Shown: piece after piece, positions 9,637-17,434 of the stretch
Layout of the letters: the number at the start of each line of letters is the position of its first letter
Position numbering within the stretch: the first letter of the stretch is position 1
NCBI GenBank assembly: GCA_022651005.1
Contig: JALCQD010000002.1
Coordinates: forward strand, 124,001-188,000
Direction: 5' to 3'
DNA length: 64,000 bases
DNA from: Bifidobacteriaceae bacterium
Lineage (GTDB): Bacteria; Actinomycetota; Actinomycetes; Actinomycetales; Bifidobacteriaceae
Made by a program: the position numbers and the translations under genes
Notes under the pieces: model-generated
Seen by the model: only the letters and a program-made list of their open reading frames with translations
Databases searched by the model: none
Told to the model about the DNA's origin: nothing

Positions 9637-9762
9637 CGTGCTGGTGCAACCCCACACTTTTGGCTGATACCTCTGAGCTGAACTCTTCAATAGATTTAAC
9701 CCCAGATGCCGTTCGCACGGCATGGCGTTATTTCGTTAAGACCATTGAGAGGACCTATCACC

Positions 9763-10617
<855 letters not shown>

Positions 10618-10621
10618 TTCC

Positions 10622-13306
10622 ATGTTCTCTATTACTCTCAAGATGATGCGCAAGAATCTGCGCATGCTCATACCTGCGGGCATCGCCGTCCTCATCGGAA
10701 CGGCGTTCGTGGCCGCAACATTCCTTTTCGGCAATGCGCTGAACGCGTCACTCGCCAAAAACGCAACCGCCGGGTACGGTGGCGCGAATTACGTTGTGGG
10801 GGCGTCCGCTTCCGATGACAATTCCGAAGCGAGTTACACCACGCTGAAGGACCTCAACCTCGCTTCTCTGCGCGGCGTCGACGGTGTGGAGGGGGTTCGC
10901 CCCGACGTGGCGACTCAGGTATCGGTAAGTGCGGCGGATGCTCACAGCTCCGCAGCTGCTCCATCTGATAGTTCCGTCACCGTTGCCCTACCCATGGCAA
11001 ATGACGCCGATCTCATGCCATTGCATCTCTCTCAGGGCGCGTGGCCGGCAGCCAGTGGCCAAATTGCCATCACGCAAGAGATGGCGACACGTCTCAAGGT
11101 CAGCGTGGGCGACTCTGTGTCGGCGGTCATTCCTGACGGTGTCTACGGAGAGGATGCGGGCAGCTTGGCGGGCACCGCACTTCCCACGCAGACTGCAAAA
11201 GTGGTGGGTCTCACCACGGATCCCGACGGCGCGTACAGTTACGCGGCCGGCGCCTCGGTGATGGCGGAAGATGACTTCTTCGCCATTCAGGGCCTCACGA
11301 ACCACATGGATCAAGTGAGCGTATCAAGCGTATATCTGAAGGTTGCCACACAGAACCGTTCCCAAGAGCAGATTGATGCCACGCTTTCCGGCGTCAAGAA
11401 GGCGCTTCCCTCGGGATTCGATGTAATATCGCGCCAGAAAGCTGCCGACAAGGCCATTGAGCAAATCGGCAACGGCCAGAACATCATCGTGACATTCTTG
11501 CTGGTCTTTGGTGTCATTGCACTGTTAGTGGCGGCCCTTGTTATTGCCAACACCTTCCAGGTGCTCGTGGCACAGCGGCGTCGTACGCTCGCACTCCTGC
11601 GCACCATCGGCGCTAAAAAGGGACAGCTCTACCGTTCCGTACTGTTCGAAGCGAGTCTTCTGGGTGCGGTGGCCTCTGCGCTGGGTATCGTTCTGGCGAT
11701 TGCGCTCATGCAGATTCTCTCTGCCCTTCACGTCAAGGGTCTCACTGGAAGTGACTTCCAGGTGAGTCTCGACTGGCGCGTCATTGTGGTGCCTCTGGTG
11801 TTCGGCATTGGCATGACGATTCTGGCGTCGCTCGGTTCGGCGCGCATGGCCACTTCCGTGACGCCGCTCGAGGCACTGCGCCCAGTGGAGCTGACGCACA
11901 ACAAGAAGGCGGGCGTGATGCGTGGGCTGCTGTCCCTGGTGGGCATCGTGGGTGGTGGTGCGCTCGCCGTTCTTGCCGTCATCGACACGGGTTCGCTCAC
12001 TCCCAGCGTTGGTGCGCAGGGCGATTTCATGGTGGGCCTCGCCATGGCGGTGGGTGGTGGTGCGCTCATGTTCCTTGGTCTCATTTTGTCGGCCGTATGG
12101 TGGATGCCTGTTCTCATGCGGGGAGCGGGGGCGATCGCTTCGGCGGCCGGTCCTGCTAGCAAAATTGCCGCTGCGAACGTGCAGAAGAATCCGCGTCGCG
12201 TCGCTGCAACGGGCGTGGCGTTGTTGATTGGCGTCACCCTTGTCACGGCCATTAGCACGGGCGCCGCCTCCGCCAAGCAGACGCTGGCCGACACGATGTC
12301 TCACAATTATGCGGTAGACGTTCAGATAACGGACGGAAATTTGGATTCTGCTGCTCTCTCGGCTGTGAAAAAGGTGTCGGGAGTGAAGGCGGCGGGATTG
12401 CTTCCCTTCACGGATGGAAGTGTCTCGGCGCATCCCGCGGAGGCCTCTTCCGCAAAGGCAAAAGCGAAAACTCTGAGCGTGGGAGTCGTCGGTATCACGG
12501 CCTCCCAGCGTCGTGACCTTGTGCGCGCCGATGTGTCCACGCAATCTACGGCTGGCGTTGTTGTTATGAACAAAACGCTCTATAGCGGTAAGAACAACCC
12601 GTATAAAGACGGCAGTACCGTGCGCATTCACCTTGATGCCACGAAGACCGCGCCTGCGAAGGACGTGGAGCTGAGCGTCGCACTGCGCGATTTTGTGCCC
12701 ATGACCGGCTCGCAGATCACCGCGCTTGTGGAGCCCAATGTGTTGGAATCGCGTGGTGTTCCCTCCATCATCTGGATGACCGTAGGCGATTCCGCCTCGC
12801 CCATTCAACTCATGAGCGACGTGCAGGACGCCGTATCCAAGTATCCGGGCGCCAGCGTTACCGGTCCTTTTGCCGAGCGTCAGATGTGGGAGAGTTCCAT
12901 CAACGTCGTGATGGCAACGCTTATCGGATTGCTTGCGGTGTCGGTGATCATCGCGCTCATCGGCGTGGCCAATACGCTTTCTCTGTCGGTGATCGAGCGC
13001 ACGCGCGAGTCCGCAACATTGCGCGCCATTGGCATGACCAAGCGTCAGCTGCGCACGTCGCTGGGTGTTGAGGCGCTTATCATCGCTGTGGTCTCAGGTA
13101 TAGCGGGACTTGTGCTCGGTGTGGGATTTGGCTGGCTTGGATCCACCGTGATCCTGTCGACCATTGGAACCGTGAGCTTCCAAGTAGATTGGGTGATGTG
13201 TGCCGTGGTTCTTGGCATCGCCATCGTGGCGGCACTGGTTTCCAGCATCGCACCTGCACGGCGCGCAGTGAAGACTGCGCCAGTGGTCGCGCTCGCTGAG
13301 GCATAG
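10622..13306 (+). CDS. ABC transporter permease, FtsX/MacB family
   Basis: The 894-residue permease has two FtsX units. An N-terminal TM helix (residues about 15-40) is followed by a large extracytoplasmic domain of about 230 residues, then three TM helices ending in the first FtsX domain (VTFLLVFGVIALLVAALVIANTFQVL, then the coupling segment QRRRTLALLRTIGAKKGQLYRSVLFEA). The middle TM pair is around residues 435-520. A second extracytoplasmic domain and a final FtsX domain follow (LSVIERTRESATLRAIGMTKRQLRTSLGVEALII). The two repeats and about 10 TM helices are typical of large actinobacterial MacB-like permeases. The start at 10622 is 4 nt after the ATPase stop. The adjacent convergent two-component system may regulate it (inference). 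Confidence 0.9.
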   Translation: MFSITLKMMRKNLRMLIPAGIAVLIGTAFVAATFLFGNALNASLAKNATAGYGGANYVVGASASDDNSEASYTTLKDLNLASLRGVDGVEGVRPDVATQVSVSAADAHSSAAAPSDSSVTVALPMANDADLMPLHLSQGAWPAASGQIAITQEMATRLKVSVGDSVSAVIPDGVYGEDAGSLAGTALPTQTAKVVGLTTDPDGAYSYAAGASVMAEDDFFAIQGLTNHMDQVSVSSVYLKVATQNRSQEQIDATLSGVKKALPSGFDVISRQKAADKAIEQIGNGQNIIVTFLLVFGVIALLVAALVIANTFQVLVAQRRRTLALLRTIGAKKGQLYRSVLFEASLLGAVASALGIVLAIALMQILSALHVKGLTGSDFQVSLDWRVIVVPLVFGIGMTILASLGSARMATSVTPLEALRPVELTHNKKAGVMRGLLSLVGIVGGGALAVLAVIDTGSLTPSVGAQGDFMVGLAMAVGGGALMFLGLILSAVWWMPVLMRGAGAIASAAGPASKIAAANVQKNPRRVAATGVALLIGVTLVTAISTGAASAKQTLADTMSHNYAVDVQITDGNLDSAALSAVKKVSGVKAAGLLPFTDGSVSAHPAEASSAKAKAKTLSVGVVGITASQRRDLVRADVSTQSTAGVVVMNKTLYSGKNNPYKDGSTVRIHLDATKTAPAKDVELSVALRDFVPMTGSQITALVEPNVLESRGVPSIIWMTVGDSASPIQLMSDVQDAVSKYPGASVTGPFAERQMWESSINVVMATLIGLLAVSVIIALIGVANTLSLSVIERTRESATLRAIGMTKRQLRTSLGVEALIIAVVSGIAGLVLGVGFGWLGSTVILSTIGTVSFQVDWVMCAVVLGIAIVAALVSSIAPARRAVKTAPVVALAEA

Positions 13307-14198: not shown

Positions 14199-16592
14199 TT
14201 ATGAGTGCGCCGTATCTGATGCCATGATAGGGCGAAGCTGCGGACGGGCGGCGACCGATGCCGTCTCGTTTTGACGCAGAATGCCCAGTAGTTCGCGCAT
14301 TTGGGCGAGTGCCTGCCGCCCCGTCTCGCCGATGGTAGAGAACGCCGTTTGGATGATGGCGGGGTCGTCGATTGTTTCGAGTTGTGGAATCCAGGAATTC
14401 GCTGAATCCAAGACCGTTCCCAGCGTCTGTGTCACCTCGTGTTGAATCTGTTCCGAGATGCGGGCGCGCTCGAGGTTTGCTGCCAACGCCGCCTGCCTGT
14501 CTCGCTGGTGCAGCAATGCCTCCTCGCGTGAGCGCAGGAGGACGATGTCGGCTCCGCGGGCACGCTTCCACAGCGCAAAGAAGATGGTGCCGAGCACAAC
14601 AGAGGTGATGAGCACTGCCGCTCCTGTGCAGATGAATGCCATTTGCTGAGTGGTATATCGCGCAACACCCTCTTCTTCCAGTTGGGCGACGGAAAGGGTG
14701 ACGCGATTGGTGTTGCTTATATTCATGCTTTGCCACACAACGGTGACGGCAAGGCCAATGATGCACGCCGACGCCGGATACACCCAACGGCGGGCAGATT
14801 TCGGACCGTACACCATCACCGAATACAGTGCGAAGAGCGCGATGATGACACCGTCGACGGGAAGCGCGGGGCCGTTGTCCGCTGAGATTGCCCCTGACGT
14901 CGTGGCGCCCGCGAGCATCGCAAGGATGAGGATGCCGGCAATGGTGGCGGCACTCAGTTGGGGGCGCGTGCGCCGCATCGCAAGAGGGAGAGCGAAGGCG
15001 ATGGAGAAGATGATGTGGAAAGCTACGGTGGGTCCGGTGGCCCCGGCGCTCCCGTAGAACCATTCGTTGAGGGCGAGGAACAATGCGAGCAGAGTCGCTC
15101 CTGCCAAATCGACGACGGCGAAATGTGACTGCGTCCACGTGGAGACGCGTTCGATGGCGTTTGTGTCTTCGGATGCGGCGGAGGCACGGTTCCTGTTCCT
15201 GCCTTGGTGCTCTTGTGATGTCACAACAGGGGTCAGCGGAATGGTGGCGGTGAGTGAGAAACCGTGATCTGCCGTGCTTTCTACCCCGCCGTCAGCGGCA
15301 TCACCTAGCGTTCCCGCATGCAGGGTTCCACCCTGCGCGGTGATGCGCTCATTCATGCCGATGAGACCGTATCCAGGATGGTGTCCGTCTGCTGCGGCGC
15401 GAGCCCCCTGGCCGTCGTCGGTCACGCTGAGTGACACGGCGGTAGGGGACCATCGTTCGACGATGTCAACGTGAACCTTAGTCGACCCTACTGCCGCGTA
15501 TTTGCGGACATTGCTGAGGGCCTCCTGGACCACGTGGAACAGTGCAGCGCTGATCTCTGAGGTGAGGGCCGTATGCTGAACCTTTCCGTGGACGCTGCGC
15601 TCGATGACAATGCGTGCGCCACTCGCCGTCTGAGCCTGATGAATGAGAGCATCGATCGAGCCGTATTCGACGGTGAGATCAGGCCTTGCACGCCGTGCGA
15701 GGGTATTTTTCTCGTCGTCCTCTCCCAGTGTTCCCAGCAAGCCGTTCATGCTAGTGAGTGCATGATTGGCTTCGTCTCTGATGGTGAGCATGGTGCCTGC
15801 AGCAATACTGGGATTTGCCACACCGGCGTATCGTCCGCCGTCAGCCTGAACGATAATGATCGACAGCGTGTGAGCCACGAGATCATGCATGTCTCGGGCG
15901 ATGCGAGATCTTTCCGCGAGCGTGGCGAGATGTGCTTCTTCCTTCTGGCTCTCCTCGAGTGCGCGATTGCGTTCGCGCATGAGATGAAGTTGGTCGAAGC
16001 GCGCGCGTCGCCAATATCCCATGGCGATGGCGCTGAGAAGCAGTGTTTCGATGGCGATGAAAATGACGATGATATCGCTGGCATATGAGGAGGCGGGAAG
16101 GGTTCCATTTGCCGTACTGTTTTGCGCAAAAAGCGGTTGGTGATGTTGCGCTACCGCATTGAGAATCGATACGAGGGCGCCCATCCCCAGCGCAATGACG
16201 ATGTAGCGGCGCGTACGCAGACGGGAGCCATACACAATTGCGGAATACAGCATGATAACGGCAACGAAATCGGCGAGAATCACCACTGGCCCGGCAAGAA
16301 TCTGGAGTATAGCGAGCAGAATGAAGGTGATGGCTCCCGAATCGGCATGGGTGCGGCGCACGGAGAGGGGAACGATGTAGATGAGTGACCACACGATGGC
16401 CGAGTTCGTCGATTGAGGAAGAAGAAGTGACTGCGGTGTTGTCTCCGCTTGCAGCAGCGTGAAAAATCCTATGAAAAGTGCGGCCTTGAGGATGTCAAGA
16501 ACCTGACGGTGTCGTTCGGACCACCGCGCCATGCGCGTAATATGCGGCGCCCGTGGAGCAGGCTTTGCGGAAATGGGGGTGGAAGACGGCAC
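14199..16592 (-). CDS. Tandem (double-module) sensor histidine kinase, C-terminal module degenerate
   Basis: This 797-residue protein contains two sensor-kinase modules. Module 1 (1-455) has about five TM helices (residues 33-195), a HisKA_3 dimerisation helix with H-box RIARDMHDLVAHTL (His236), the N-box EALSNVRKYA near 357-366, the G1 box DDGQG (392-396) and G2 GYGLIGM. It is a complete NarX/DesK-type kinase. Module 2 (485-797) repeats the layout, with TM helices between 490 and 675 and a second HisKA_3-like helix, RISEQIQHEVTQTLG (711-725). There the phospho-acceptor His position is Gln717 and the neighbouring Asp is His718. No ATPase domain follows; the protein ends after about 50 more residues. 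It is translated upstream of the response regulator in one operon. Module 2 may sense or regulate rather than phosphorylate. Confidence 0.92.
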   Translation of the reverse strand: MPSSTPISAKPAPRAPHITRMARWSERHRQVLDILKAALFIGFFTLLQAETTPQSLLLPQSTNSAIVWSLIYIVPLSVRRTHADSGAITFILLAILQILAGPVVILADFVAVIMLYSAIVYGSRLRTRRYIVIALGMGALVSILNAVAQHHQPLFAQNSTANGTLPASSYASDIIVIFIAIETLLLSAIAMGYWRRARFDQLHLMRERNRALEESQKEEAHLATLAERSRIARDMHDLVAHTLSIIIVQADGGRYAGVANPSIAAGTMLTIRDEANHALTSMNGLLGTLGEDDEKNTLARRARPDLTVEYGSIDALIHQAQTASGARIVIERSVHGKVQHTALTSEISAALFHVVQEALSNVRKYAAVGSTKVHVDIVERWSPTAVSLSVTDDGQGARAAADGHHPGYGLIGMNERITAQGGTLHAGTLGDAADGGVESTADHGFSLTATIPLTPVVTSQEHQGRNRNRASAASEDTNAIERVSTWTQSHFAVVDLAGATLLALFLALNEWFYGSAGATGPTVAFHIIFSIAFALPLAMRRTRPQLSAATIAGILILAMLAGATTSGAISADNGPALPVDGVIIALFALYSVMVYGPKSARRWVYPASACIIGLAVTVVWQSMNISNTNRVTLSVAQLEEEGVARYTTQQMAFICTGAAVLITSVVLGTIFFALWKRARGADIVLLRSREEALLHQRDRQAALAANLERARISEQIQHEVTQTLGTVLDSANSWIPQLETIDDPAIIQTAFSTIGETGRQALAQMRELLGILRQNETASVAARPQLRPIMASDTAHS

Positions 16593-16664: not shown

Positions 16665-17303
16665 CTATTTCCTGAATAAGTTGAGCGTCTGGATCCCGTG
16701 GATCATGAGCCCCACGCCGATGCAGAGAATGATGAATCCCATCACGCGGGTGAGTGCGCCGATCCCGGTAGGGCCGAGCTTGTCGATGACAGGAGTGCCC
16801 CACCGCAGTAGAACGAAGATCATGGCGGCGATTGCCACAGTGGCAAGTAGTACGGCGGTGCGGTCAAGAATATCGGGATAGCGAGCGGCGAGGGCGATGA
16901 CCTCGCCAATCGCACCGGGTCCAGCTATGAGAGGTAGCGCCATGGGGGTGAAGGAAATATCGGGTTTGGTGAGTGCGTGCTCTTTTTCCGGTCCCGTGAG
17001 TTGTTCCTTCGGATTGAGCATTCCCATGGCTGAATGTGCCACAACGAATCCGCCGGCAATTTGAATGGAGGGAAGGCTAATGCCGAAGACCTCAAGGATG
17101 ATGGATCCGAGAATTGTGAAGCTCGCAAGGATGATGAAGACGTTAAGGGCCGTTTTGAAGGCCTGGCGACGTACGTATTTTGCGTCCAGCTGAGAGGTGA
17201 GGCCGGCAAAGCTCGCCATAGCGCCGATGGGGTTAACGATGGGCAAGAGAGCGAGGAAGGCGGCGATGCCCACTCCTGCGATGCTCATGAGGTCAGCGTT
17301 CAT
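16665..17303 (-). CDS. MarC family (UPF0056) integral membrane protein
   Basis: This 212-residue multi-pass membrane protein has the six-helix MarC fold. The motif LALLPIVNPIGAMASFAGLT is near the N-terminus, VVAHSAMGMLNP in the middle, and ALPLIAGPGAIGEVIALA at the start of the second half, the usual family signature. The function of the family is not established; a link to antibiotic resistance was proposed and later withdrawn. The frame is open to 17372, but the ATG at 17303 begins the first conserved helix. It is preceded by a TATGCT box 6 nt upstream with no Shine-Dalgarno sequence, suggesting a leaderless mRNA. It is divergent from sdaA. Confidence 0.88.
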   Translation of the reverse strand: MNADLMSIAGVGIAAFLALLPIVNPIGAMASFAGLTSQLDAKYVRRQAFKTALNVFIILASFTILGSIILEVFGISLPSIQIAGGFVVAHSAMGMLNPKEQLTGPEKEHALTKPDISFTPMALPLIAGPGAIGEVIALAARYPDILDRTAVLLATVAIAAMIFVLLRWGTPVIDKLGPTGIGALTRVMGFIILCIGVGLMIHGIQTLNLFRK

Positions 17304-17434
17304 GGAACAAGCATAATGGGAATTTTGTGTCTCACACCCGCCCGCTGACATACGCGTGTTGCATGCCAACACGGTAAGCTCGGCTGTGTTTCGTATGAAG
17401 GTGGCGGAAGCCAGGAAACGAACAGGAGAGATGA

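Follow-up and report, generated by a model that had tools for sequence, protein, structure and literature searches.

The window analysed here, a 64,000-nucleotide stretch of DNA from a Bifidobacteriaceae bacterium, encodes a double sensor kinase whose first half, module 1, appears to be a working kinase with all catalytic residues intact, and whose second half, module 2, repeats the layout of the first in a degenerate form. As far as the sequence can tell, module 2 is without an acceptor, a phosphatase residue and an ATPase domain, its docking face is eroded, and the core of its helix bundle is conserved. Because module 2 is dead yet kept by selection, its probable role is that of an additional membrane sensor or of a pairing module, and we consider it reasonably probable that it tunes module 1 as a sensor and dimerisation unit without catalytic activity. 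A second sensor or an intramolecular regulator, as the first-pass annotation of this DNA had proposed, remains the best reading of it.

The open reading frame at 14199-16592 proved to be genuine and lies on the minus strand (Table 1). DUF7134 was recognized by Pfam in both halves (3.8e-12 and 1.1e-9, each above the curated cutoff), and HATPase_c was confined to the first half (32.7 bits, cutoff 26.4), with no Pfam match in the second. HisKA_3 scored 52.3 bits in half 1 and 18.9 bits in half 2, the latter being under the cutoff of 24 and matching mainly on the second helix. When the family profiles of the two modules were compared with each other, they matched at E=1.6e-40 across 264 columns, with E=1e-12 when the comparison was limited to the DHp parts. 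The match between the profiles indicates that the repeated layout of a membrane block plus a HisKA_3 helix, first noticed in the window, is due to homology, and a chance repeat of two modules is ruled out. The numbering of His236 and Gln717 is correct, Gln717 standing at the position that matches His236, and the protein ends 24 residues past the second DHp helix. The claim that a DesK/NarX-type kinase and a crippled copy of it share one chain was likewise confirmed.

Table 1. Features of the double sensor kinase locus, in window positions
Feature	Position	Strand	Basis or remark
Double sensor kinase gene	14199..16592	minus	797 aa, GTG start at 16592; possible alternative ATG at codon 21
Module 1, residues 1-484: DUF7134 membrane sensor, HisKA_3 DHp (His236) and HATPase_c	15141..16592	minus	Pfam
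His236 codon, module 1 phospho-acceptor	15885..15887	minus	counted from start 16592
Module 2 with its stop codon, residues 485-797: DUF7134 membrane sensor plus DHp hairpin; no ATPase domain	14199..15140	minus	Pfam, profile match
Second DHp (DHp2), about residues 704-774, Gln717 in place of the acceptor	14271..14483	minus	profile match, hairpin model
CAA codon of Gln717, at the acceptor site	14442..14444	minus	
Tail after DHp2, possible remnant of a DHp-to-ATPase linker	14202..14270	minus	loose motif
NarL/LuxR-type response regulator, 270 aa	13366..14178	minus	Pfam; start 20 bases past kinase stop
MacB/LolD-type ABC exporter ATPase	9706..10617	plus	convergent
FtsX-type ABC permease, two FtsX stretches	10622..13306	plus	start inferred from longer ORF

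The double layout is present in at least 149 of the 159 Bifidobacteriaceae genomes with a match, among 189 family genomes searched; homologues without the C-terminal half, which the first-pass annotation had set against its own proposal, are not the norm. The loci compared throughout are 140, the window and 139 others, and 138 of them have both modules in one open frame, the exceptions being L072, in which the second half is interrupted, and L167, which has a run of N. The other 19 of the 159 matching genomes were searched with the family profile, and the 11 doubles among them are excluded from the tallies of the acceptor site. Ten of the 19 have full-length doubles, and in G184 a single open frame contains the two halves. 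Both halves are also present in G025 and G054, on separate frames or contigs, a contig edge interrupts the match in G110, and only module 2 is present in G060. G027 gave no match at the threshold of the family profile, and G141, G142 and G186 gave weak kinase-domain matches only. Of the 30 non-matching family genomes, 26 were searched with the family profile; none of these gave a double, and one, G001, gave a weak kinase-domain match. Five of the 26 belong to genus g3 and are near complete (94-99%), which indicates that some lineages lack the double kinase. The double kinase is dispensable in some lineages (these five, G141 and G142), a point against the explanation that we favour.

Among the matches listed from outside the family, the double form was not encountered. 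An evenly spread sample of the order gave full-length matches in 20 of 24 family genomes, and 257 of its 273 genomes from other families matched at E<=1e-20. Among the matches listed from those 273 genomes, with at most three candidates scored per genome, so that weak doubles may be missed, there was no double and none of the matches extended past position 517 of the 835 in the model. A class sample of 296 genomes overlaps the order sample, and in it E<=1e-88 was reached only by the genome of the window itself.

The acceptor His of module 1 and the Asp that follows it are present in all 140 loci. The DxxxQ/H motif, described as a phosphatase motif in the cited part of PMC11502775, is likewise found in module 1, with D237 and H241 in 140/140. 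At the corresponding position of module 2, the 140 loci have Gln (108), Arg (27), His (3), Asp (1) and a gap (1); without the damaged L072 and L167 the counts are Gln 108, Arg 27 and His 3 of 138. On a tree that omits the acceptor columns, Gln and Arg alternate at this site through at least nine changes, and Gln, Arg and His together require at least 10. The first-pass annotation had also drawn attention to a His beside Gln717. This residue is present, but it carries little weight as a feature, since His718 occurs in only 5 of the 140 loci, the window included; a role as a shifted acceptor is ruled out by the same count, and His718 is probably incidental. Genus g2 has four members, and three of them (L081, L084 and L085, from G006, G004 and G003) carry His followed by Glu at the module 2 acceptor. 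A His is limited to these three members, which belong to a clade neighbouring that of the window, and their His codons are a single base apart from the Gln codons, so that an ancestral and a regained His both fit. In all three, module 2 is without an ATPase domain, and the module 1 residues at +5, +12, +15 and +18 are missing.

The tail after DHp2 is 20-83 residues long in the 137 of 140 loci that were scored (all but L040, L072 and L167), which is too short for an ATPase domain. A loose motif, [LMIV]xP[AVILM], is found in the tail of 134 of 138 members (L072 and L167 left out). A linker containing PQP precedes the ATPase domain in 19 readable single kinases of other families; L002, the other kinase in the genome of the window, is without such a linker. 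From the likeness of the tail to the linker of single kinases, we infer that a truncation directly past the DHp-to-ATPase linker removed the second ATPase domain. In a tree of the modules, from which L186 (no pattern match), L072 and L167 were left out, the module 1 rows form one clade (37/37) and the module 2 rows another (37/37; SH-aLRT 99), and the branch separating the single kinases, on which a closest kinship of modules 1 and 2 would depend, has a support of 40. One clade for each module fits a single fusion that preceded the split of the sampled lineages.

The first-pass annotation had named free drift of the second half as a point against its own proposal. Median dN/dS is 0.038 in DHp1, 0.099 in DHp2, 0.187 in the ATPase domain (CA), 0.257 in the first membrane block (TM1) and 0.263 in the second (TM2), as estimated over 196 related and non-independent pairs (187-195 usable per segment; L072 and L167 left out). 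In the subset of 36 disjoint pairs, a small number of segments come close to 1 or exceed it, in cases with dS below 0.05. DHp2 has a median roughly half as high as the active CA domain. The second half is therefore under purifying selection, and a freely drifting C-terminal half is ruled out. The second membrane block evolves no more slowly than the first, which counts against the favoured explanation. In both helices of DHp2, conservation has the periodicity of a helix (95 and 100 degrees per residue, equalled in 0 of 2000 permutations each), and in module 1, helix 1 varies too little for periodicity to be seen (p 0.37). The positions kept in the core of DHp2 include I712, I716, V720, T723, L724, V727, F751, I754, G758, L762, L769 and L772. 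The conservation of this core could serve folding alone, a further point against the favoured explanation.

By hydropathy, block 1 has 4-5 membrane helices and block 2 has 5-6, depending on the cutoff. A full-length model, built from a two-sequence alignment and too poor for contacts between the modules (mean pLDDT 48.7), shows six helices for block 1 and, for block 2, five, of which one has a length sufficient for two passes; in the same model each DHp is entered by a long helix that continues from the last membrane helix (residues 168-257 and 648-740). Each block probably has about six passes, which would place both DHp domains in the cytoplasm. DHp2 was modelled as a two-helix hairpin with pLDDT 84-91 over most of its length. 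Aligned with VIA-align, this model reached a best Z of 9.3, with many unrelated helical bundles tying with DesK; against DesK itself Z was 8.1 (rmsd 2.7, 92 aligned), a score that unrelated helical bundles also reach. Half 2 alone, searched against PDB sequences, gave a single match at chance level (E=2).

The residues around position 717 bear on whether DHp2 might act as a pseudosubstrate, with the ATPase domain of module 1 parked on the Gln/Arg dummy acceptor, and its autophosphorylation thereby reduced, until the second sensor frees it. Gln or Arg is found in 135/140 loci despite the repeated changes between them, the entropy of position 717 is 1.0 as compared with 2.3-3.4 at variable surface neighbours, and four residues near the acceptor end are conserved beyond what their position in the helix predicts (E708, z -1.5; R711, -2.8; E714, -1.7; R759, -2.0). 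After fitting helix position, however, Q717 itself is not unusual (z -1.1), so that a strong constraint on this residue is suggestive at most. Such a brake is conceivable, and we think it unlikely.

We are slightly more doubtful still that the second half is a passive remnant, a membrane anchor or stabiliser without a signalling role. The surface positions of DHp2 vary freely, and G060 (L224) retains module 2 alone after loss of the catalytic part, at what is possibly a decaying locus. The selection on DHp2 argues otherwise, as does the persistence of the layout across the family genomes searched.

A different role would be that of DivL, the Caulobacter pseudokinase, with DHp2 binding the phosphorylated response regulator and informing module 1. 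The regulator gene is usually conserved beside the kinase. Offsets in DesK are, we presume, counted from the acceptor His188. The phosphatase and docking positions described for DesK are +5 and, in helix 1, +12, +15 and +18 (cited part of PMC5231405). Entropy, computed without L072 and L167, is about 3 bits in module 2 at +5, +12, +15 and the acidic site after the His, as compared with 0-0.8 in module 1, whereas +18 remains a conserved L/I column in module 2, a point against the favoured explanation. The mean rise in entropy at +5, +12, +15 and +18 is 2.43 bits, matched by 2.1% of random four-position sets, a control that mixes core and surface positions and thus partly gauges surface exposure. 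A docking set of +1, +5, +8, +12 and +15 (0.01% of random sets) was chosen after the table had been seen and was discarded. The cited part of PMC4211667 provides a precedent for a dead kinase that binds a regulator: DivL, like module 2, has its acceptor His replaced and its DHp scaffold kept, and it is described there as a separate protein with a regulator-docking face. Module 2 is instead part of one chain with a kinase whose catalytic residues are intact, its own CA is absent and its docking face is mostly lost; at the level of sequence, a retained docking surface of the DivL type was not found in module 2, where +5, +12 and +15 are variable. Because DivL retains this surface, the DivL-like reading is weakened, and we regard it as distinctly improbable. 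A relay, in which the ATPase domain of module 1 would phosphorylate DHp2 on His718 or on a retained His, is highly improbable, since apart from the His-Glu pair of the three g2 members the acceptor is almost always Gln or Arg, His718 is rare, and even those three lack the module 1 residues at +5 to +18 listed above.

Under the favoured reading, in which module 2 is a non-catalytic sensor and dimerisation unit, DHp2 would still build a dimeric helix bundle, and the membrane block of module 2 would sense a second cue, or the same one, in the membrane or envelope. Through the conformation of its bundle, or by holding the dimer together, DHp2 would then set the balance of kinase and phosphatase activity in module 1, which would phosphorylate the adjoining LuxR-type regulator; the regulator, in turn, would probably control the convergent MacB-like exporter.

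The genomic neighbourhood is consistent with the last of these steps. In 129 of the 140 loci (the window being counted by hand), the regulator directly adjoins the kinase and shares its strand. It lies 2-4 kb off or was not found at L045, L046, L050, L051, L057, L058, L059 and L094, and three others among the 11 loci without an adjoining regulator are doubtful: L035 (overlap limit), L165 (strand of the ORF match) and L167 (assembly gap). The exporter ATPase is convergent and 3-4.5 kb downstream in 43 of the 49 loci that are sufficiently long (the window again counted by hand); in genus g11 (L041, L072 and L078) it lies on the kinase strand, 1.2-2.0 kb downstream. From this synteny, the pair of kinase and regulator probably controls the exporter. 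Upstream of the kinase start by 72 bases, a gene for a membrane protein (16665-17372, minus strand), which we take to be of the MarC family, is possibly in the same transcript as the kinase. At L224:5888-8663 in G060, the exporter ATPase is followed by a remodelled open reading frame and then by the regulator, and the catalytic part is absent. This frame starts with a stretch similar to the first membrane helix of module 1 and continues in frame into module 2; no permease was recognised among the open reading frames there. The locus may be decaying, or may reflect an assembly fault.

Dead or CA-less kinases are already known, as are rare kinases with two transmitter domains. Over the DHp and CA of module 1, the family profile matches DesK at E 1.4e-24, and the kinase shares with DesK/NarX-type HisKA_3 kinases (PDB 3gie, 3gig and 7ssj) the HD and H box and an adjoining LuxR-type regulator; it differs from them in the second sensor and DHp module fused past the CA domain. 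We take ChrS of Corynebacterium glutamicum to be of the HisKA_3 type as well. Its pseudokinase form with a frameshift in the CA, as described in the cited part of PMC9491836, is comparable to module 2 in having no working CA, and its presence is accompanied by stronger signalling through the paired active HrrS. According to that part, the strain with CA-less ChrS expresses the exporter more than the strain without chrS, via phosphorylation by the paired kinase HrrS, and native ChrS and HrrS heterodimerise (PMC9491836). CA-less ChrS is the closest functional precedent, although it is laboratory-evolved, encoded by a separate gene and retains the acceptor His (PMC9491836), whereas module 2 is fused, common to a family and without its acceptor. 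Two transmitter domains are reported in 2 of 15704 non-hybrid kinases in the cited part of PMC3018481. Those kinases are alike in having two transmitter-type units per chain without a receiver domain, and the second unit here differs in being degenerate and without a CA; counts based on domain models would therefore likely overlook such kinases. Among the matches listed from the open-licence literature, no description was found of a family-wide fusion of a live HisKA_3 kinase with a dead, CA-less copy.

The tandem kinase could also amount to a built-in pseudo-heterodimer, in which the dead DHp pairs with the live module or docks its ATPase domain within the same chain. We hold this to be a rather unlikely arrangement; if true, two sensors would vote on one acceptor, and the usual rule that kinases are symmetric homodimers would be broken. 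The family offers a natural experiment, in more than 100 species, on the role of a DHp domain once catalysis has been removed. Should the first half be regulated by the second, a single kinase would integrate two membrane sensors without the parts of a phosphorelay.
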